A DNA stretch of 37,973 nucleotides, from NCBI GenBank assembly GCA_013288485.1, contig JABDBW010000018.1, forward strand, positions 663-38,635, in the 5' to 3' direction. Position numbers and translations under genes: made by a program. The notes under the pieces were generated by a model, which was not told the DNA's origin, searched no databases, and worked only from the letters and a program-made list of their open reading frames with translations. The DNA is from Bacteroidota bacterium. GTDB lineage: Bacteria > Bacteroidota > Bacteroidia > Sphingobacteriales > Sphingobacteriaceae. Of this stretch, positions 4,492 to 37,973 are shown piece after piece. Each line of letters starts with the position of its first letter. Position 1 is the first letter of the stretch.

Positions 4492-4500
4492 GGTTTTTTA

Positions 4501-4768
4501 GTTCATGGTTGATGGTTCATGGTTAGCCCCCTCTAAATCTCCCCCTGTAGGGGAGACTTTCCCCACACTCAAGGCCCCCTTATCAATAAACGCAAAAGGT
4601 TTAATTTTTGGCAAATCAAAAGTCTCCCCTACCGGGGGAGATTTAGAGGGGGCTGCGGCTATTCTTTGAATAATAAAAATACTTATATTAGCCCCAGCCT
4701 AAGTCATAACGTTAACCAATTGCCGCTATGAACTATCATCCATGAACCATCAACTATTAACCATGAAC
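4501..4768. repeat. Outer repeat family of ATGGTTCATGG-type words around an inner inverted repeat
   Basis: The words TTCATGGTTGATGGTTCATG at 4502-4521 are matched in inverted form by CCATGAACCATCAACTATTA at 4740-4759, with another copy of ACCATGAACC at 4760-4769. The two outer blocks bracket the separate inverted repeat at 4524-4653. The right block contains both candidate start codons of the SGNH hydrolase gene (4742 and 4763). With the inner repeat it fills most of the 262-bp pyrD/SGNH spacer. Confidence 0.65.
4524..4653. repeat. Inverted repeat with arms AGCCCCCTCTAAATCTCCCC
   Basis: The left arm (about 4524-4560) and right arm (about 4617-4653) are reverse complements over roughly 36 nt with one mismatch. 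Each arm itself holds a small palindrome (CCCCCTGTAGGGG, CCCCTACCGGGGG). This looks like a dispersed repeat and would make a large stem in either transcript. It lies between the divergent pyrD and SGNH genes. Confidence 0.85.
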
Positions 4769-5530
4769 CAAACGAACAACCGACGCAGTTTTATCCGTAA
4801 CGCTTCCTTCGGCACCATTGCCGCTATCAGTATCCCGCAAATTGTATCCTCGGCTTTCGCTGCCGCGCCGAAAGGCAAACGGGTAACTATTGAGAAGGGT
4901 GATACTATTCTTTTCCAGGGCGATTCTATTACCGATTCGGGCCGCAGCAAAAACGGTGTCGCGGCACCCAATAATGCCGGAGCGTTAGGAAATGGTTATG
5001 CGCTAATGGCTACCGGCGAATTATTGCTGCAGCACCCTGATAAGGACCTGAAATTTTTTAACAAAGGCGTTAGCGGTAATAAAGTTTATCAAATGGCCGA
5101 CCGTTGGGACGCGGATACCATTGCTATAAATCCGAATGTTTTAAGTATACATATTGGCGTGAATGATTTTTGGCATACCTTAACCAATGGCTATAAAGGC
5201 ACTATAGAAACTTATATAGCCGATTATAAAAAATTACTTGACCGTACCAAACAGGCATTACCCAATGTAAAACTGGTTATTTGCGAACCTTATGCTGTAT
5301 TAGGTGTAAAAGCCGTTGATGATAAATGGTACCCGACGTTCAACCTGTTCCGCAAAGCGGCAAAGGATATGGCCGACCAATATAACGCCCCGTTTGTGCC
5401 TTTCCAGGCAGTTTATGATAAAGCAATAACCCAGGCCCCACCTGCTTACTGGACACCTGACGGTGTACATCCATCTGTGGCCGGCGCTGCGCTAATGGCG
5501 CGTACCTGGCTGGAGGCGGTTAAGGGGTAG
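4763..5530 (+). CDS. Secreted SGNH/GDSL-family esterase
   Basis: About 255 aa from ATG 4763; an ATG at 4742 would add seven residues. I prefer 4763 because the extra residues (MNHQLLT) are encoded by a repeat. The N-terminus NRRSFIRNASF followed by a hydrophobic stretch and AFA resembles a twin-arginine signal peptide, so the protein is probably exported. SGNH blocks are clear: FQGDSITDSG (block I, nucleophile Ser), GNGYALMA (block II region), SIHIGVNDFWH (block III, Asn), and TPDGVHPSVAGAALMA (block V, Asp and His). Relatives remove acetyl or other acyl groups from polysaccharides; the substrate here is unknown. It is followed by an inverted repeat and the ABC-F gene and is probably monocistronic. 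Confidence 0.88.
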   Translation: MNQTNNRRSFIRNASFGTIAAISIPQIVSSAFAAAPKGKRVTIEKGDTILFQGDSITDSGRSKNGVAAPNNAGALGNGYALMATGELLLQHPDKDLKFFNKGVSGNKVYQMADRWDADTIAINPNVLSIHIGVNDFWHTLTNGYKGTIETYIADYKKLLDRTKQALPNVKLVICEPYAVLGVKAVDDKWYPTFNLFRKAAKDMADQYNAPFVPFQAVYDKAITQAPPAYWTPDGVHPSVAGAALMARTWLEAVKG

Positions 5531-5666
5531 GTTTTGAGGTAAAAGGTGAAAGGCAAAAGGTTTGCTTTAGTTTAATAATAGTTGATATGCTACAGTAGAT
5601 GCTGAGGATTGACCACTATGCCCTTACCTTTCGCCTTTAACCTTTTACCTTTCGCCTCAAAAACCC
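5530..5666. repeat. Imperfect inverted repeat built from AAAGG-type words
   Basis: Starting at the stop codon of the SGNH gene, GGTTTTGAGGTAAAAGGT and related AAAGG words (5530-5561) are matched in reverse complement at about 5621-5666 (TACCTTTCGCCTCAAAAACC and similar). The arms contain internal repeats of AAAGG, so pairing can slip. The right arm ends directly at the -7 element of the ABC-F gene. It may serve as the SGNH terminator. Confidence 0.65.
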
Positions 5667-5681: not shown

Positions 5682-7610
5682 ATGATTGCTATAAACAACC
5701 TTACGTTCGAGATCGGTGCGCGCGCATTATATGATGAAGCCAACTGGCACATTAAACCCGGTGAAAAAATAGGCCTTATTGGGGCTAACGGAACCGGGAA
5801 AACCACCCTCCTGAAAATTATTACCGGCGAATATAGTCCTACATCGGGTACCATATCAATGGCTAAGGATTTGACGATGGGTTACCTTAACCAGGACCTG
5901 CTGTCGTACTCATCCGATAAAAACATTGTGCATGTGGCTATGGAGGCCTTTGAGCGACAGAACCAATTGCATGACGAGATAGAAGCCCTGCTTCAAAAAC
6001 TGGAAACAGATTATACAGAAGATCTGCTGCATAAATTAAGCGATAAGCAACATGAGTTTGAGCTGCTTGACGGTTATAATATTGAATATAAGGCGCATGA
6101 AATTTTAGCAGGTTTAGGATTTACCGAAGCTGATTGCTCGCGTAAGTTAAGCACCTTTTCGGGTGGGTGGCGGATGCGGGTAATGCTGGCCAAGATATTA
6201 TTACAGGCACCCGATATTTTATTGCTGGATGAGCCTACCAACCACCTCGACCTACCCTCTATACAATGGCTGGAAGATTATTTAAAAGCGTTTAGCGGCG
6301 CCATTGTGATTGTATCGCACGATAGATGGTTTTTGGATAGGGTAATAAACCGCACAGTTGAAGCGCGTAAGGGTAAGCTGAATGTTTATGCAGGTAACTA
6401 CACTTTTTACCTCGAAGAAAAGGCCATGCGCGAAGAAATTCAGCGGGGAGAGTTTAAAAACCAGCAGTCAAAAATAAAACAGGAGGAGCGTTTAATTGAG
6501 CGTTTCCGAGCCAAGGCAACCAAAGCTAAGATGGCGCAGTCGCGCATAAAAATGCTCGATAAATTGGAGCGGGTGGATGATGTGGATGATGATAACCCGA
6601 GCGTTAACTTCAGTTTCCGTTTCAGCAGGCAATCGGGGAGGCACGTGGTAACGATGGAGCATATCACCAAAAAATACCCGGCTATTGATATTTTAGATAA
6701 CGCCGAAGCGATAATTGAAAAAGGCGATAAAATAGCCCTTATCGGCGCGAACGGTAAAGGTAAATCAACCCTGTTGCGCATTATTGCAGGGGCCGATAAA
6801 GAGTTTAAAGGCACCAGCCTGACCGGCCATAATGTAACGCAAACATTTTTCGCGCAACATCAGTTAGAATCGCTGCATTTGGAGAACCAGGTATTGCAGG
6901 AACTGCAGGCCTTCGCGCCCAAACACACCGAAACAGAGCTGCGTTCTATTTTAGGTTCGTTTTTGTTTACGGGAGATGATGTATTTAAGAAGATAAAAGT
7001 GCTTTCGGGTGGTGAAAAATCAAGGGTGGCATTAGCCAAAGCGTTAACCGCCGACGCTAACTTCCTGATACTGGATGAGCCCACCAATCACCTTGATATG
7101 GCTTCTGTAAATATATTGGTGCAGGCATTGCAGCAATATGAAGGTACGCTTATCGTGGTATCGCACGACAGGTATTTCCTGGATAAGGTAGCCAACAAGA
7201 TATGGTTCATTGAAGATCAGAAAATAAAACAGTACCCCGGCACTTATGTAGAATATGAAGAGTGGTCATCAAAACGCAAACTGGAACCAAAAGCGGCGAT
7301 ACCAACTCCTCAGCCAAAAAAGGAAGAAAAAAAGGAATTAGAACCTATTAAACTTCATCAACCATCAGACAATAAGCATCAGCAATTAAAAAAGCTGAAT
7401 ACTGATCTTTCAAAAATGGAAGAGCAGATTGCCGGGCTGGAACTATTAGTTAAGCAACTGGAAAGCCAATTGGCTGATGATAAAATTTATACTGACCCTA
7501 CTAAACTGAAAGAAACCAACACCGTTTATTCTCAAAAGAAAGCTGAATTAGAACAAATTCAACAGCAATGGGAAACATTGGCTGAGCAGATTTTGGAGTT
7601 GGAGGCGTAG
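5682..7610 (+). CDS. ABC-F family ATPase (translation factor type, Uup/EttA-like)
   Basis: 642 aa with two ABC ATPase domains and no membrane segments, the mark of ABC-F proteins that bind the ribosome E site and act in translation or antibiotic protection. Domain 1 has Walker A GANGTGKT (34-41), signature FSGGWRMRV and Walker B LLLDEPTNHLD. Domain 2 has GANGKGKST, LSGGEKSRVALAK and LILDEPTNHLD. Between them is the charged P-site tRNA interaction linker (about residues 245-305, rich in Glu, Lys and Arg). The C-terminus (about 565-642) is a heptad-rich coiled coil like the Uup C-terminal domain. The exact subfamily cannot be fixed from the sequence alone. The gene stands alone with its own -7 element; the Plug gene follows after a repeat. 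Confidence 0.93.
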   Translation: MIAINNLTFEIGARALYDEANWHIKPGEKIGLIGANGTGKTTLLKIITGEYSPTSGTISMAKDLTMGYLNQDLLSYSSDKNIVHVAMEAFERQNQLHDEIEALLQKLETDYTEDLLHKLSDKQHEFELLDGYNIEYKAHEILAGLGFTEADCSRKLSTFSGGWRMRVMLAKILLQAPDILLLDEPTNHLDLPSIQWLEDYLKAFSGAIVIVSHDRWFLDRVINRTVEARKGKLNVYAGNYTFYLEEKAMREEIQRGEFKNQQSKIKQEERLIERFRAKATKAKMAQSRIKMLDKLERVDDVDDDNPSVNFSFRFSRQSGRHVVTMEHITKKYPAIDILDNAEAIIEKGDKIALIGANGKGKSTLLRIIAGADKEFKGTSLTGHNVTQTFFAQHQLESLHLENQVLQELQAFAPKHTETELRSILGSFLFTGDDVFKKIKVLSGGEKSRVALAKALTADANFLILDEPTNHLDMASVNILVQALQQYEGTLIVVSHDRYFLDKVANKIWFIEDQKIKQYPGTYVEYEEWSSKRKLEPKAAIPTPQPKKEEKKELEPIKLHQPSDNKHQQLKKLNTDLSKMEEQIAGLELLVKQLESQLADDKIYTDPTKLKETNTVYSQKKAELEQIQQQWETLAEQILELEA

Positions 7611-7619
7611 TTAATTAAA

Positions 7620-7744
7620 GCGTCATTGCGAGGAACGAAGCAATCTCTTCATATGCAAATCAAACAGTATAATATTGTTGAAAAGATAAAAGCAAACTGC
7701 AATGCCTGTCGATGCAGAGATTGCTTCGTTCCTCGCAATGACGC
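7620..7744. repeat. Inverted repeat of the GCGTCATTGCGAGGAACGAA family, overlapping the 5' end of the Plug gene
   Basis: Arm 7620-7648 and arm 7716-7744 are perfect 29-nt reverse complements beginning GCGTCATTGCGAGGAACGAA and ending GCAATCTCT. The 67-nt centre carries weaker complementarity. A relative of the same family lies at 9014-9110 on the other side of the Plug gene. The right arm contains an ATG (7738) that begins a signal-peptide-like frame. Confidence 0.9.
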
Positions 7745-24401: not shown

Positions 24402-24419
24402 TCCCGATAGCTATCGGGA
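24402..24419. repeat. Perfect palindrome TCCCGATAGCTATCGGGA
   Basis: An 18-bp perfect palindrome lying 4 nt beyond the GH13 stop codon on the minus strand. A related palindrome is found upstream of tyrS (31373-31390). It may protect or end the GH13 transcript. Confidence 0.7.
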
Positions 24420-32372: not shown

Positions 32373-34331
32373 ATGGCAAAAAAACAAGAAGCAGAAAAAG
32401 AATTAAAAGCTAAAGAGGCTGAACTGGAAACGGTTACCGCCATTAGCGAAAAAGAAACTATTGAATCAGAGGCTGATTCGATATCAATCGAAGAGATCAA
32501 ATCTCAAATTGCAACCGCACCAGGCGAAGATTTCGACTGGGATGCAGACGACAAAAAATTTGGCAATTACAGCGACAGTGAGCGTGAAAAAATGGAGAAA
32601 TTGTATGATGGAACTTTCAGCTCCATCACCAAGGGCGAAATTATTACCGGCACCGTTGTAAATGTTAACAGCAAGGATGTAGTATTGAACGTTGGGTTTA
32701 AATCTGATGGTTTGGTATCTGTTTCTGAATTCCGTGATACACCTGATCTGAAGATCGGTGATACCGTTGATGTATTTGTTGAATCGCAGGAAGACGCTAA
32801 CGGACAGTTAGTACTTTCACGTAAACGTGCAAAAACTCAAAAATCATGGGAAAGAATTAATTCTGCACTGGATAACGATGAGATCATTACCGGCTTTGTT
32901 AAAAGCAGGACCAAAGGTGGTTTAATTGTAGATATAATGGGCGTAGAAGCCTTTTTACCAGGTTCACAGATCGACATTAAACCTATCAGGGATTATGACG
33001 TTTATGTGGGCAAAACAATGGAATTTAAAGTTGTTAAAATAAACCACGAGTTTAAAAACGTGGTGGTATCGCACAAAGTGTTGATTGAGGATGACCTTGA
33101 AAACCAAAAAACCGAAATTGTTGCCAAATTGGAGAAAGGCCAGGTACTGGAAGGCACAGTTAAAAACATTACCGACTTTGGTGTATTTATAGACCTTGGT
33201 GGTGTTGACGGCTTATTACACATTACCGATATTTCATGGGGCCGTATTGAGCACCCGAGAGAAGTATTGTCATTAGATCAGAAGATCAACGTTGTTGTTC
33301 TTGATTTTGATGACGAGAAAAAACGTATCGCGCTTGGCTTAAAACAATTAACCCCACATCCTTGGCAAAGCCTTGACGAAAAAATACAGATCGGTTCGAA
33401 AGTTAAGGGCCGAATAGTAACAGTTGCCGATTATGGCGCTTTCTTAGAAATTATCCCGGGTGTTGAAGGTTTGATACACGTGTCAGAAATGTCATGGTCG
33501 CAAAACCTGCGTAACCCACAGGAATTCCTGAAAGTTGGCGACGAAATTGAAGCACAAGTTTTAACATTGGATCGCGAAGAACGCAAAATGTCATTAGGTG
33601 TTAAGCAATTAACTCCCGATCCATGGCAAAATGCTGCTGAACGTTATGCAGTTGGTACCAAACATACTGCTACAGTAAAAAACATGACCAACTTTGGCGT
33701 GTTTGTTGAGTTGGAAGACGGAATTGACGGATTAATACATATCTCTGACCTTTCATGGTCTAAAAAAGTAAATCACCCTAATGAATTCACTAAAGTTGGT
33801 GAAAAATTAAACGTGGTTGTTTTAGAGCTTGATGTAGAGAACCGTAAATTAAGCCTGGGCCACAAACAACTGGAAGAAAACCCATGGGATACTTTTGAAA
33901 CCATCTTCACTATTGATTCAATACATGAAGGTACCGTAATAAAAGTAACTGATAAGGGCGCTATTGTTGCTTTACCTTATGGTGTTGAGGGCTTTGTGCC
34001 AACCAAGCATCTGGTTAAAGAAGATGGCAAGAGTTTAAAAGCTGAAGAAGCCGCTGAATTTAAGATCATTGAATTTAACAAGGAAAACAAACGTATCGTT
34101 ATTTCACACTCACGTATATGGGAAGAGGCTCGTGCCGATGCCCGTGTGCAGGAATTTGAAAACCGTAAAAAGGAAGCAAAATCTGCTAACAACGCGGTTA
34201 AGAAAGTGAAAGAATCAGTAGAAAAATCAACTTTAGGCGATCTGAGTGTACTGGCCCAATTGAAAGAACAAATGGAAGGTGCCGAAAGCAAAGCCAGGAA
34301 AACTAAAAAATCAGAAGAAGAAGCTAAATAA
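32373..34331 (+). CDS. rpsA: 30S ribosomal protein S1
   Basis: 652 aa from ATG 32373. A Lys/Glu-rich N-terminal tail typical of Bacteroidota S1 (MAKKQEAEKELKAKEAELE) is followed by repeated S1 RNA-binding domains. Recognisable copies include KGEIITGTVVNVNSKDVVLN, GQVLEGTVKNITDFGVFIDL, GSKVKGRIVTVADYGAFLEI and GTKHTATVKNMTNFGVFVEL, with linkers such as EFLKVGDEIEAQVLTLDREE. It binds mRNA and helps bring it to the 30S subunit, which matters in a phylum where Shine-Dalgarno pairing is weak. A frame start at 32304 lies upstream of the promoter box and is rejected. The C-terminus is charged, with Lys and Glu. A strong terminator follows. Confidence 0.95.
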   Translation: MAKKQEAEKELKAKEAELETVTAISEKETIESEADSISIEEIKSQIATAPGEDFDWDADDKKFGNYSDSEREKMEKLYDGTFSSITKGEIITGTVVNVNSKDVVLNVGFKSDGLVSVSEFRDTPDLKIGDTVDVFVESQEDANGQLVLSRKRAKTQKSWERINSALDNDEIITGFVKSRTKGGLIVDIMGVEAFLPGSQIDIKPIRDYDVYVGKTMEFKVVKINHEFKNVVVSHKVLIEDDLENQKTEIVAKLEKGQVLEGTVKNITDFGVFIDLGGVDGLLHITDISWGRIEHPREVLSLDQKINVVVLDFDDEKKRIALGLKQLTPHPWQSLDEKIQIGSKVKGRIVTVADYGAFLEIIPGVEGLIHVSEMSWSQNLRNPQEFLKVGDEIEAQVLTLDREERKMSLGVKQLTPDPWQNAAERYAVGTKHTATVKNMTNFGVFVELEDGIDGLIHISDLSWSKKVNHPNEFTKVGEKLNVVVLELDVENRKLSLGHKQLEENPWDTFETIFTIDSIHEGTVIKVTDKGAIVALPYGVEGFVPTKHLVKEDGKSLKAEEAAEFKIIEFNKENKRIVISHSRIWEEARADARVQEFENRKKEAKSANNAVKKVKESVEKSTLGDLSVLAQLKEQMEGAESKARKTKKSEEEAK

Positions 34332-34357
34332 GCTTTAGATAATTTTAAATTATAAAA

Positions 34358-34387
34358 AGCCCTGCCGATTTCGGTGGGGCTTTTTTT
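34358..34387 (+). terminator. Intrinsic terminator of rpsA
   Basis: Stem AGCCCTGCCG (34358-34367) pairs with CGGTGGGGCT (34372-34381) around ATTT, with two G-T wobbles, followed by a run of T residues to 34387. Confidence 0.9.
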
Positions 34388-34431
34388 GTTGTGTAAAACT
34401 TTACTAAATTGGCGTTATTGTTATTTAAATT

Positions 34432-35313
34432 ATGGGACTGTTCACCAAAAGAAAAATAAAAAAGGCACAAGAATTACTGGATTTTGCAATTTCTTTGAAA
34501 GAAAATCAAGAAGAGGAAGCAATAAAAATTTATGATGAGGTGATTAAGCTTAGGCCGGATTGGTCGACACCCTATTACAATTTAGGCTTATTATATAAGT
34601 ATCGCAATGATTGGGAACAGTCACTATATTATAATACTCAGTCAGTAAAGTTAGACTACGAAAATGAAGCTGGATGGTGGAATTTAGGAATTGCAGCAAC
34701 TGTATTGAATAAATGGGAGATTGCAAGAGAAGCATGGTCAAAATGTGGAGTAGAAATAGAAATCAACAAAAATGAACCAAATATGCAACTTGGGAATACT
34801 CCAATAAGATTAAACCCTAATTCAAATCCTGAGGTAATATGGGCTAAACGAATTGACCCGGCAAGAGCCATCATCCTCAACGTTCCTTTTCCCTCTAGCG
34901 GTCGTAGATATTCTGATATCGTATTAAACGACGGCGCTCCGCAAGGGTATAAAATTGTTGGAGAAATTGAATATGCTATATTAAATGAATTGGAATTAAT
35001 AAAAAAGTCCGATTATAAAACCTATTCATGTGATATTTACACGAGCGATCCTAAAAACATAGAAGAACTAACAAAAATTTGCGAACAGTCCGATATTGAA
35101 ATGGAAGATTGGTCAACAGTAAGATATTTTTGCAAGAAATGTAGCGAGGGTATAACACATGAGAGCCATGATCATGACTTAAAAGAAAAAGATAAAAACC
35201 TATCAGCTATTGGTTTTGCATTAACAGATGTGGAATTATTAAAGGAAGCCTTGCAAAAATGGTATGTTATAACTTTATGTGAGTATGATAATTTAAAACT
35301 TGAATTAGAATAA
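34432..35313 (+). CDS. Tetratricopeptide-repeat protein with an uncharacterised C-terminal domain
   Basis: 293 aa. The N-terminal third holds TPR units: EEAIKIYDEVIKLRPDWSTP, YYNLGLLYKYRNDWEQSLYY and EAGWWNLGIAATVLNKWEIA (about residues 27-105). The C-terminal part (about 125-293) contains VIWAKRIDPARAIILNVPFP, GRRYSDIVLNDGAPQGYKIV and a CKKC motif that could bind zinc. I recall similar TPR proteins in other Bacteroidota but cannot verify this. There is no signal peptide. It is AT-richer than its neighbours, with many AAA, AAT and TTA codons, which hints at recent transfer. Its stop is 30 bp before the pyrR -7 element. Function unknown. Confidence 0.78.
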   Translation: MGLFTKRKIKKAQELLDFAISLKENQEEEAIKIYDEVIKLRPDWSTPYYNLGLLYKYRNDWEQSLYYNTQSVKLDYENEAGWWNLGIAATVLNKWEIAREAWSKCGVEIEINKNEPNMQLGNTPIRLNPNSNPEVIWAKRIDPARAIILNVPFPSSGRRYSDIVLNDGAPQGYKIVGEIEYAILNELELIKKSDYKTYSCDIYTSDPKNIEELTKICEQSDIEMEDWSTVRYFCKKCSEGITHESHDHDLKEKDKNLSAIGFALTDVELLKEALQKWYVITLCEYDNLKLELE

Positions 35314-35343
35314 AGACATCACTACAACATCTATAAAAATTAC

Positions 35344-35351
35344 TACCTTTG
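35344..35351 (+). promoter_or_regulatory. -7 element TACCTTTG of pyrR
   Basis: TACCTTTG fits TAnnTTTG. It overlaps the TTG at 35349, which rules that codon out as a start; ATG 35370 lies 18 nt downstream. Confidence 0.5.
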
Positions 35352-35369
35352 CCCAAATCCACCCAAACG

Positions 35370-35915
35370 ATGCAAAACCTTACGCTGCTCGACGGTCAGA
35401 AGTTTCAAATCACTATACAGCGTTTATGTCGTCAATTAATTGAAAATCACAATGATTTTTCCGGGTCGGTATTAATTGGTATTCAGCCCCGCGGCATTTA
35501 TCTCGCCAACCGTATAACTGAAGAATTAAGAAAAATATTACCCGGCCACACAATAGAACAAGGCGACCTCGACATTACTTTTTACCGGGACGATTTCCGC
35601 AGGCGCGAATTACAGTTGGTGCCCAATCAAACTAAAATAGATTTTATTGTTGAAGGCAAAAAAGTAGTCATGATGGATGATGTGCTTTGGACGGGCCGAA
35701 CCATACGCGCCGCAATGGACGCGATGCTTGATTTTGGCCGGCCAGAAAAAATTGAATTGCTGGCATTGGTTGACCGCCGGTACTCGCGCCACCTGCCCAT
35801 TGCTGCCGATTATATAGGTATTGAAGTCGATTCCATCGCGTCGCAAAAAGTAGTGGTAAGCTGGAAGGAAACAGATGGGGAAGATAAGATTGTTCTTTTA
35901 TCTGAGGCAAAGTGA
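35370..35915 (+). CDS. pyrR: PyrR, bifunctional pyrimidine regulator / uracil phosphoribosyltransferase
   Basis: 181 aa from ATG 35370. The type I phosphoribosyltransferase fold shows the PRPP-binding motif VVMMDDVLWTGRTIRAAMDA, the flexible hood region DITFYRDDFRRRE, IGIQPRGIYLANRI and ELLALVDRRYSRHLPIAADY. PyrR binds pyr mRNA when UMP is high and lowers expression of the operon, and it also salvages uracil. pyrB follows after the S23 element. The upstream leader is too short to hold a standard attenuator; any RNA target would lie between pyrR and pyrB or elsewhere. Confidence 0.93.
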   Translation: MQNLTLLDGQKFQITIQRLCRQLIENHNDFSGSVLIGIQPRGIYLANRITEELRKILPGHTIEQGDLDITFYRDDFRRRELQLVPNQTKIDFIVEGKKVVMMDDVLWTGRTIRAAMDAMLDFGRPEKIELLALVDRRYSRHLPIAADYIGIEVDSIASQKVVVSWKETDGEDKIVLLSEAK

Positions 35916-35921
35916 GTAAAT

Positions 35922-36399
35922 AATATCGAATAATGAATGTTGAATATCGAATAATGAAGTAGTAATTAATGAAAGATAATAAGTACGATTTAGAAGAAAG
36001 ACTGATAGATTTTGCAATTATTATATTTGACATTGTTGATGGCTTACCCGTTTCAAGGCTTGGCCATTATATGGCGGGACAATTAGTGCGCTCGGGGTGC
36101 TCACCAGCTTTAAATTATGGCGAAGCGCAATCAGCGGAGTCAAGAAATGATTTCATTCACAAAATGAAAGTCATATTAAAAGAACTTAGAGAGTCACTTA
36201 TTTCGATAAAAATAATAGAAAGAAAAAAATTGCATGATTCGGAGATGGTATTAAAAGCTAAGGACGAATGCAATCAATTGGTCGCAATTTTTGTAAAAAG
36301 CATTGAAACATCAAAAAAGAATAATATAAAGTAATATCAGATACTGAAAATTGAATGACAACTTCATCATTCGATATTCAACATTCGATATTCGATATT
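35922..36399. repeat. 39-nt inverted repeat enclosing an S23 four-helix-bundle gene
   Basis: Arm 35922-35960 and arm 36361-36399 are reverse complements over 39 nt with three mismatches; the shared core is GTTGAATATCGAAT. The words ATATCGAA and TGAATATCGA repeat inside each arm. The arms lie 7 nt after the pyrR stop and 8 nt before the pyrB start and enclose one gene of 366 bp. In mRNA they would form a long stem with a 400-nt loop. This is the boundary of a likely mobile element. Confidence 0.85.
35969..36334 (+). CDS. Four-helix-bundle protein, S23/IVP family
   Basis: 121 aa, the usual length of the family first seen in 23S rRNA intervening sequences. Four helical segments are predicted: about 8-24, 28-45, 53-86 and 95-115. 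Family hallmarks are GHYMAGQLVRSGCSPALNYG (the R-S-G-x-S-x-x-x-N-Y block) and EAQSAESRNDFIHKMKVILK, shown here in part as AQSAESRNDFIHKMKVIL. The fold is related to the Avd accessory protein of diversity-generating retroelements and may bind nucleic acid. It is very AT-rich compared with pyrR and pyrB. No reverse transcriptase gene is present in the window. It sits inside the inverted repeat 35922-36399 between two pyrimidine genes, which makes it a probable insertion. Confidence 0.88.
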   Translation: MKDNKYDLEERLIDFAIIIFDIVDGLPVSRLGHYMAGQLVRSGCSPALNYGEAQSAESRNDFIHKMKVILKELRESLISIKIIERKKLHDSEMVLKAKDECNQLVAIFVKSIETSKKNNIK

Positions 36400-36407
36400 C
36401 AAATAAA

Positions 36408-37331
36408 ATGGCATTAAGTACAAAACATCTTTTAGGAATTAAGGACTTAAACCCGGCAGATATCCAGCTGATATTTGAAACAGCCGATAATTTTAAAACC
36501 GTATTAAACCGGCCCATAAAAAAAGTCCCTTCCCTGCGTGATGTAACTATTGCCAATATATTTTTCGAAAACTCCACCCGTACCCGTTTATCTTTTGAAT
36601 TAGCCGAAAAACGCTTATCGGCCGATGTGGTAAATTTTGCCGCATCGTCATCATCTGTAAGCAAGGGCGAAACATTGATAGATACGGTAAACAACATCCT
36701 GGCCATGAAGGTGGATATGGTGGTGATGCGCCACCCTTATGCCGGCGCGGCCACCTTTTTATCCAAACATGTAAAGGCGCAAATAGTAAACGCCGGCGAC
36801 GGCGCGCACGAACATCCTACACAGGCCTTGCTCGATGCGTTCTCCATCCGTGAAAAATATGGCGATGTTGCCGGAAAGAAAGTCGTCATTGTGGGCGATA
36901 TTTTACATTCGCGCGTGGCCCTGTCGAATATTTTATGCCTCAAACACCTGGGTGCTGAGGTAATGGTTTGCGGGCCAACTACGCTTATACCTAAATACAT
37001 CAGTGCCCTGGGCGTTAAGGTGGAACATAACCTGCTTAAGGCGCTTAACTGGTGCGATGTAGCCAATATGCTGCGTATACAACTGGAAAGGCAGGATATT
37101 AAGTATTTCCCTTCGCTGCGCGAATATACGATGCTGTACGGCCTTAATAAACAAATACTCGACTCGTTAGATAAAGAGATAACCGTAATGCACCCCGGCC
37201 CCATCAATCGCGGCGTTGAAATAACCAGCGATGTTGCCGACAGCAAACAATCCATCATACTCGACCAGGTGGAAAACGGCGTTGCCATACGCATGGCCGT
37301 ATTATACCTGCTGGCCGGACAAACAACCTAA
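36408..37331 (+). CDS. pyrB: Aspartate carbamoyltransferase catalytic subunit
   Basis: 307 aa from ATG 36408. A longer frame beginning at 36351 passes through the inverted repeat and gives residues unlike the family, so I reject it. Carbamoyl phosphate site Ser56-Thr-Arg-Thr-Arg60 in FENSTRTRLSF, KGETLIDT, VVMRHPYAGAA, HEHPTQALLDAF, and the aspartate-binding HPGPINRGVEI near the C-terminus are all present. The enzyme makes carbamoyl aspartate, the first committed step of pyrimidine synthesis, in the cytoplasm. It is separated from pyrR only by the S23 element and ends 14 bp before the convergent GH92 gene. No pyrI gene is seen. Confidence 0.96.
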   Translation: MALSTKHLLGIKDLNPADIQLIFETADNFKTVLNRPIKKVPSLRDVTIANIFFENSTRTRLSFELAEKRLSADVVNFAASSSSVSKGETLIDTVNNILAMKVDMVVMRHPYAGAATFLSKHVKAQIVNAGDGAHEHPTQALLDAFSIREKYGDVAGKKVVIVGDILHSRVALSNILCLKHLGAEVMVCGPTTLIPKYISALGVKVEHNLLKALNWCDVANMLRIQLERQDIKYFPSLREYTMLYGLNKQILDSLDKEITVMHPGPINRGVEITSDVADSKQSIILDQVENGVAIRMAVLYLLAGQTT

Positions 37332-37345
37332 CTTCCCCAATAAAT

Positions 37346-37973
37346 TTACTCCGGCTGAGACATTGACGGAGGTACCGCATCAGGAGAACTGCCCCATTGC
37401 TTGTTAGGCCTGGGGCCCATGTTTAGCACAAGAGTACCACCTTTCATAAGCGTAGCATGTTCAAACCAGGGTTTATTAAGCGGCGCACCGTTTAAAGTGG
37501 CTGATTGAACGTACTTGTTACTTGCCGATACATTTTTTGCCTCGATCACAAAAATCTTTTTATTACCCAACGTAATGGTTGATTTTGAAAATATAGGGCT
37601 CCCTATAAGCCATACCGGGTAACTGGGTATCATGGGGTCAGAGTAAATGCCCATTGCACTGTTTACGTAAAAGTGAGAAAGCAAGCCGGTGTCTTCATCG
37701 CCGCATATGCCCAACGGACTTGCGCTATACCATACATCCATAATTTCCCTTACGCGCCGTTGTGTTTTCCACGGCTCGCCCGAGTAGTTGTACAGGTAAG
37801 GTATATTCCGTGAGAATTCATTTCCGTGGGCATAATTCCCGATCAAGCCTGTCATATCAGGGAACAGGTCTAAAAAATTATATTTCGATCTTTTATATTG
37901 TTCAACAAAAAGTGCATCCAGTTTAGCATTAAAATTATTGTTGCCGCCAAATAAATTTATCAGGCCCTGTATA
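37346..37973 (-). CDS. GH92-family alpha-mannosidase-like enzyme, C-terminal part
   Basis: 208 residues are visible; the frame is open to the right edge, so the N-terminal part is outside the window. Conserved GH92 features include FPDMTGLIGNYAHGNEFSRN (in part GLIGNYAHGNEFS), GEPWKTQRRVREIMD, ICGDEDTGLLSHFYVNSAMG (with the conserved GDED) and IGSPIFSKSTITL...SATLNG. GH92 enzymes are calcium-dependent exo-alpha-mannosidases, usually secreted, in Bacteroidota glycan-use loci. The C-terminal end shows no type IX secretion sorting domain. It converges on pyrB. Confidence 0.92.
   Translation of the reverse strand, partial: IQGLINLFGGNNNFNAKLDALFVEQYKRSKYNFLDLFPDMTGLIGNYAHGNEFSRNIPYLYNYSGEPWKTQRRVREIMDVWYSASPLGICGDEDTGLLSHFYVNSAMGIYSDPMIPSYPVWLIGSPIFSKSTITLGNKKIFVIEAKNVSASNKYVQSATLNGAPLNKPWFEHATLMKGGTLVLNMGPRPNKQWGSSPDAVPPSMSQPE

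Follow-up and report, generated by a model that had tools for sequence, protein, structure and literature searches.

The segment at 35922–36399 of the window, as we call the whole 37,973-nucleotide stretch of DNA analysed here, probably represents a widespread type of selfish element, about 0.5 kb long, in which an S23 protein recognises its own heptamer hairpins in a manner like that of RAYT–REP systems but with no known enzyme. Both the recognition of the hairpins by S23 and the movement of the element are what we infer. The armed S23 architecture itself recurs in several phyla and fills most of the gap between adjacent genes, and the set of words that makes up the arms goes with the clade of the S23 protein, also where homology between the flanks was not found.

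An S23 gene within inverted heptamer arrays splits pyrR and pyrB

The element lies between pyrR (35370–35915, forward strand, from an internal ATG at 35370; NF003549, 190 bits against a cut-off of 138) and pyrB, the aspartate carbamoyltransferase gene (36408–37331, forward strand; NF002032, 408 bits, cut-off 263), and not in a 23S rRNA gene. Inverted-repeat and period analysis delimited the left arm (35922–35967), a degenerate array of the heptamer GAAYNNN with a period of 7. The right arm (36354–36399) is the heptamer array inverted, and neither arm is assigned a strand. The ORF between them (35969–36334, forward strand) is co-directional with the operon and encodes a 121-residue four-helix-bundle protein of the S23/IVP family, as called from the reading frame, the profiles (PF05635, 34.0 bits, cut-off 33.8; TIGR02436, 63.8 bits, cut-off 24) and a structure model. 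The element comprises inverted ends that can form a stem and an ORF in the sense of the host transcript. The two arms are 46 nt each and complementary at 41/46 positions (89%); over the shorter span of 35922–35960 and 36361–36399, 36/39 positions match when counted by eye.

An earlier note on this DNA had described an S23/IVP gene within inverted arms in the pyrR–pyrB gap, which the profile scores above cut-off and the 36/39 matching positions bear out. It had placed the right arm correctly, 8 nt before the pyrB ATG (36408), but the left arm begins 6 nt after the pyrR stop (35915), not 7. Its statements that a single gene is enclosed and that no transposase lies between the arms also hold: the window ORF list contains no second ORF of at least 60 aa wholly between pyrR and pyrB, and PF05635 was the sole profile match of the enclosed ORF. 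The window arms scored 33.5, against a maximum of 15 in 285 shuffles over all loci. Folding of the transcript, proposed in the same note, gave z = −4.8, a value equalled by 0/100 shuffles. No known RNA family was matched over the element up to E 1 when 34300–37973 was searched, the seven sub-threshold matches all falling at 34300–34398. A match to AAATAA, a candidate target-site duplication, can be seen by eye outside both arms, in AT-rich sequence. The source genome is a 2.5-Mb draft that is 62% complete.

Modelled as a monomer, the product of the window ORF is predicted to be a four-helix bundle (pLDDT 93), and the model resembles the S23 structures 2RLD and 2GSC with TMq 0.77–0.83; titles of the solved S23 structures refer to unknown function or to conserved hypothetical proteins. 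The suggested likeness to Avd of diversity-generating retroelements was recovered in the model, more weakly than that to the S23 structures (4DWL, TMq 0.71–0.76, E 0.07–0.2). Proteins of the S23/IVP family assemble as oligomers (pentamers), and we know of no catalytic activity in the family. Neither phage records nor viral contigs contained a match to the one S23 query searched.

Armed S23 genes recur in several phyla

We assembled 95 S23 loci from 30 related genomes (30 loci from a profile search, 60 further matches and five loci of the window's genome), which are best-scoring matches rather than a random sample and on which the arm thresholds were also set. TIGR02436 was matched in 31/31 relatives. 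Inverted arms with a score of at least 12 were present at 81/95 S23 loci compared with 29/570 swapped pairs and 2/285 shuffles; 14/95 loci fell below the threshold. Control ORFs reached this score in 5/103 cases, two of which are themselves S23 genes, leaving 3/101. The window's genome holds five or six S23 genes, and the five found with Pfam are all armed, with differing words. One locus (L085) duplicates another (L002); it is counted among the 95 and was excluded from the period, Mantel, flank, G–U and geometry analyses.

A period of 7 was the best period in 58/80 arms versus 24/316 control stretches, another period being best in 22/80 arms, and the lag-7 match over the 80 arms was 0.525 versus 0.298 after shuffling. 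G exceeded C in the upstream arm at 79/80 loci. The median element length over the 80 loci was 483 nt. The left arm followed the upstream stop by a median of 2.5 nt (68/80 loci, those at which a co-directional upstream gene was found) and the right arm preceded the next start by a median of 6 nt (73/80 loci). Both neighbours were co-directional with S23 at 71 of 94 loci, one ran against it at 17, both ran against it at 0 and one neighbour was uncalled at 6. In the wider clade (best 80 of 539) the same classes contained 54, 13, 0 and 13 loci, the strands of neighbours in both sets being taken from open-frame calls rather than from annotation. At 14 annotated plasmid S23 loci, S23 was co-directional with both sides at 10, with one side at 1 and with neither at 3. 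From these counts S23 therefore seems reliant on the host transcript in Bacteroidota-type loci, and not strictly so elsewhere.

The wider relatives of the window S23 gene were taken as the best 80 of 539 confirmed, 78 of them testable and 2 without a flank. These best 80 belong mostly to Bacteroidota and Ignavibacteria, with single or few MAGs labelled Cloacimonadota, Neomarinimicrobiota, Chlorobiota and Armatimonadota. Arms were found at 64/78 of the loci; the swapped control was high (81/234) because many of them share one word family. GAAYNNN arrays flanked 36/78 of these loci compared with 6/1766 background stretches. Both pyrR and pyrB were present at 13/78 loci of this best-80 set and not both at the other 65/78. 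Among 12 inspected loci, five split the pairs CBS/CGL, fumarase-beta/mdh, nuoJ/nuoK, pnuC/nadR and lepA/folD, the genes being named by best profile match, in some cases below the curated cut-off.

Plasmid S23 loci from Cyanobacteria, Gemmatirosa and Azospirillum (16 of the 25 records found, two being copies of one block) were armed in 13/16 cases versus 28/240 for swapped pairs. One plasmid S23 gene lies between two ribonucleotide reductase subunit genes and one between cas10 and a cmr3-family gene. On a Pseudanabaena plasmid (L157, 1260–1945), long and nearly perfect AAAAGCT/AAAAGCC arms surround an S23 gene between cas6 and cas4. Plasmids 1 and 2 of Calothrix brevissima NIES-22 (L155, L156) have matching blocks in which an armed S23 gene is accompanied by a phage-type integrase and two other ORFs.

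GxxExxY genes were armed with a score of at least 12 in 21/29 cases (L193 excluded) versus 24/145 swapped pairs. The arm style is therefore not exclusive to S23, and GxxExxY may be another gene family that lives in this way. The inverted arms at these TIGR04256 genes (L171–L200) consist of short quasi-periodic words, such as ACCACAGAGACACAGAG.

Arm words track the S23 clade

Over 80 loci, arm similarity followed S23 similarity (Mantel r 0.63, 0/2000 permutations). Among cross-genome pairs, arms were alike in 85/98 pairs with close S23 proteins (score ratio of at least 0.7), the other 13/98 having dissimilar arms, in 28/243 middling pairs and in 6/2,704 distant pairs (ratio below 0.4); within genomes, the corresponding figures were 2/3, 0/13 and 0/99. 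The 101 close pairs comprised 50 with similar arms and homologous flanks, 37 with similar arms and no flank homology found, 5 with homologous flanks and dissimilar arms and 9 with neither, flank homology being searched within at most 700 nt and some flanks being shorter. The unit has therefore often been inherited in place and elsewhere has apparently been relocated.

Evidence that the arms of an element compensate for each other's changes in pairing was weak: in 17 pyrR–pyrB elements (L203 and L219 left out), own arms barely beat species-swapped arms (mean pairing 25.1 versus 23.7), with 609/10000 permutations as good. A wobble signature at the RNA level was absent and even slightly reversed, the arm mismatches of the 80 S23 loci amounting to 73 G–U versus 100 A–C in the sense transcript. 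With no G–U excess and weak pairing within the element, what is conserved therefore seems to be the set of words and not the exact pairing, which we read as favouring protein recognition over a pure RNA stem function.

S23 presence at the pyrR–pyrB junction is labile

The genus group was named Mucilaginibacter from the closest named relatives of the window S23 gene (among the best 80 of 539 confirmed); the cultured species M. pedocola (L339) is one carrier of the element. PyrB was found in 116/120 genus genomes, with pyrR adjoining in 116/116. These 116 junctions divide into 19 with S23 of the window clade, 13 with S23 of a distant clade and 84 with no S23; the earlier note had suggested seeking empty junctions in relatives. 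The second clade, at 26–35% identity, has TTCGGAT-type arms on both sides in 13/13 cases; that note missed it, as it did the 7-nt periodicity and the clade-matched words. Two other S23 loci of the second clade split nuoC/nuoD (genes named by reading), and a third (L222) has the same downstream gene as these two and no visible right arm.

TTCGGAT arms were present on both sides at 10 of the 84 S23-less junctions, on the right only at 27, on the left only at 8 and on neither side at 39. Arm-like remnants thus occur at 45/84, matched with up to 3 errors, a setting that gave 0 matches in reversed gaps. In the 27 genomes of the same family outside the genus that were read at this locus, the pyrR–pyrB gap measures 24–134 nt, which leaves too little room for an S23 gene. 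A REP-like palindrome, GTCATTGCGAGG...GAAGCAATC, was seen with up to 4 errors at 31/84 S23-less junctions (among L231–L330) and at 0/32 junctions with S23; its core also occurs in the window, at 7622–7742. Some pyrR–pyrB copies (L203, L207, L212, L216) carry an extra arm downstream of the S23 gene, which makes nearly a whole hairpin.

The pyrR tree of the 116 junctions (312 nt; an earlier version was built without 13 short-pyrR rows) is weak, with 14/113 inner branches strongly supported. The state changes needed on it number 16 for the window clade, 12 for the second clade and 28 for all states together, compared with shuffled means of 17.9, 12.5 and 30.3. Branches with strong support require at least 5 changes for the window clade, at least 4 for the second clade and at least 7 for the S23-less state. 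As state changes on this weak tree are near random, S23 presence at the junction is therefore very labile. For separation of the two messages as the purpose of the element, proposed previously, we found no evidence, in view of this lability and of the lack of a G–U excess in the arms of 80 loci.

Close relatives of the window S23 (at least 71% identity) numbered 19 in the 120 genus genomes, all at pyrR–pyrB; 17/19 are intact and two (L214 and L219) are broken. A recent arrival of the window copy was not supported, all 19 close relatives in these genomes being at the same junction. Window-clade S23 has a dN/dS of about 0.05 in the 8/136 pairs that are unsaturated (broken L214 and L219 excluded) and a pN/pS of 0.163 versus 0.106 for pyrR, and its distances follow pyrR distances (r 0.51, 0/5000 permutations). 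The sequence comparison argues for long residence of the window clade with many losses or allelic replacement and not for recent jumping, and inheritance of the clade at pyrR–pyrB looks mainly vertical. The earlier idea of an rRNA-IVS-like, stem-bounded unit moved into a protein operon is accordingly upheld in part: the unit resembles an IVS, its arm copies are dispersed and a published 23S IVS, in the passage describing it, has tandem heptamers at the RNase III site (PMC4990558), but recent arrival of the window copy is not upheld.

Dispersed arm copies and gene-less hairpins

Comparison of arm copies across the genome had also been suggested beforehand. The window element gave 34 matches at 16 places in its own genome, 15 of them elsewhere, and at many of the 14 places inspected there is a hairpin that has a small loop, similar ends and no gene. 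One hairpin, flanked by genes that we read as tag and polA, occurs in the window's genome only and is absent from 29 other genus genomes; this comparison covers 30 genus loci from 59 genomes with a polA match, with tag upstream in 28/30. Matches to four-unit GAAYDHY arrays had a median of 27 in the 19 window-clade genomes versus 1 in the 101 without (Mann–Whitney p 6e-9, or 5e-5 minus 7 own-site matches, in a test that ignores relatedness). Among the 101 genomes without the window clade at pyrR–pyrB, 46 had no match, 55 had at least 1 and 22 had at least 10; some word matches in clade-free genomes are plain microsatellites, for example of GAACTAT.

The window contains further gene-less structures. 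At 5532–5663, in the gap between an ORF that ends at 5530 and one for an ABC-type ATPase that starts at 5682, a pair of AAAGGT/ACCTTT arms uses the same words as the S23 gene of locus L001. At 4499–4771, inverted TTCATGG-type heptamer arrays surround about 200 nt without an S23 gene; words of this type also flank the S23 genes of relatives L126, L128 and L141. The palindrome CCCGATAGCTATCGGG occurs in the window at 24403 and 31374, and the same sequence or a near copy is found inside some heptamer hairpins (L012, L018, L021), as if inserted.

Discussion

In the reading that we favour, an S23 oligomer would bind its cognate heptamer hairpin, as RNA or as single-stranded DNA, and host enzymes would copy the bound hairpin into operon gaps or insert it there, S23 then being expressed by read-through from the operon. 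Gene-less hairpins would be derivatives served in trans, and the binding protein would take the place of the known transposase in a RAYT–REP-like logic. For RNase III, the stem of the pyr message is probably a substrate that is tolerated. A bolder proposal, possible but put forward tentatively, is that S23 represents a new class of mobile element that itself encodes neither a nuclease nor a transposase nor a reverse transcriptase. The oligomer and its lineage-specific heptamer hairpin would then replicate as a pair and spread among operon gaps by way of a hairpin of RNA or single-stranded DNA. Many of the heptameric repeats of bacteria, as well as rRNA IVSs, would derive from this class, with GxxExxY as a second cargo lineage.

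The element could instead serve its host as an RNA device, in which a predicted RNase III-processed stem would separate or tune the pyrR and pyrB messages and S23 would bind or autoregulate the stem. Such a role would suit the very stable fold (z = −4.8), the strong purifying selection on window-clade S23, the orientation of S23 (against both neighbours in 0/94 and 0/80 Bacteroidota-type loci) and the excision of the analogous rRNA element by RNase III, as described in a passage of PMC4990558. We nevertheless consider it unlikely, given the near-random distribution of states over the pyrR tree (28 changes against a shuffled mean of 30.3), the 39/116 junctions with neither S23 nor either TTCGGAT arm, arm mismatches without G–U excess, the broken S23 copies at pyrR–pyrB and the many unrelated gene pairs that are split by similar units.

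That two separate things have met, REP-like heptamer palindromes having occupied the gaps first and S23 genes having been inserted later, strikes us as quite improbable. The match of clade and words across genomes, also without flank homology, is not expected from random insertion, and the two clades at pyrR–pyrB have different words; the idea would, on the other hand, accommodate arm copies at 15 further places, more than the five or six S23 genes of the genome, and both TTCGGAT-family arms at 10/84 S23-less pyrR–pyrB sites. Least credible to us, and very improbable, is a retroelement in which an Avd-like accessory protein would work with a reverse transcriptase acting in trans, as in diversity-generating retroelements. 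The Avd-like fold (4DWL, TMq 0.71–0.76, E 0.07–0.2) and an RNA stem that suggests an RNA intermediate point towards it, but 14/31 S23-bearing genomes have no RVT_1 match, and two RVT_1-free genomes are single contigs with 5 and 6 S23 matches. A reverse transcriptase is therefore not required in the same genome, and dependence on one is disfavoured.

For the favoured reading of a selfish, hairpin-recognising element, a close parallel is RAYT–REP, in which, as outlined in passages of PMC2817692, a gene lies between inverted repeats, the repeats covary with the protein and cognate repeats are dispersed. The S23 arms, too, vary together with their protein and have copies scattered through the genome. 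The S23 element differs from RAYT–REP/BIME in being without a tyrosine transposase match, in encoding a four-helix bundle and in having arms made of heptamer arrays; moreover, rayt genes are described as fast-evolving in those passages whereas the window S23 clade is under purifying selection. Avd has a similar fold, but unlike in a diversity-generating retroelement no reverse transcriptase was found in the four proteins scanned, and the 62%-complete genome yielded no match to RVT_1.

The element shares with 23S rRNA IVSs a length of about 0.4–0.5 kb, stem-forming ends and one sense S23 ORF. In the passages on the Coxiella 23S IVS (PMC4990558), tandem heptamers (GACAGAT) lie at its 5' end, upstream of the ORF and at the RNase III site; the IVS is excised by RNase III, IVSs are noted as earlier suggested mobile elements, and the function and origin of rRNA IVSs are called unclear. 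The S23 elements described here differ in lying between protein genes, with many target gene pairs, and in having clade-matched heptamer arms on both sides together with dispersed gene-less hairpins. By this comparison, rRNA IVSs may be one case of the S23 element class. The heptameric tandem repeats of Calothrix/Nostoc and Xanthomonas, as presented in PMC4692102, are likewise mostly intergenic 7-nt arrays, and the paper, whose subject is G-rich heptamers in Xanthomonas and Nostoc, gives 70 and 75 convergent inverted heptamer pairs (GGGAATC) in two Xanthomonas genomes and few in Nostoc; its main text, however, contains 'four helix' and 'S23' 0 times and makes no link to S23.

Should each S23 protein bind its own word set and not that of another, S23 proteins, rRNA IVSs and heptameric repeats may belong to a single system, and one would have to explain how a mobile element manages with no enzyme of its own. 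The clade-matched arms provide a direct test of own-word binding by S23. Across titles, abstract openings and passages of the open-access literature, we found no link of S23 in protein operons to heptamer arms. A table in PMC5524665 lists, for Flavobacterium columnare, a four helix bundle gene between the genes for guanylate kinase and nicotinate nucleotide adenylyltransferase.
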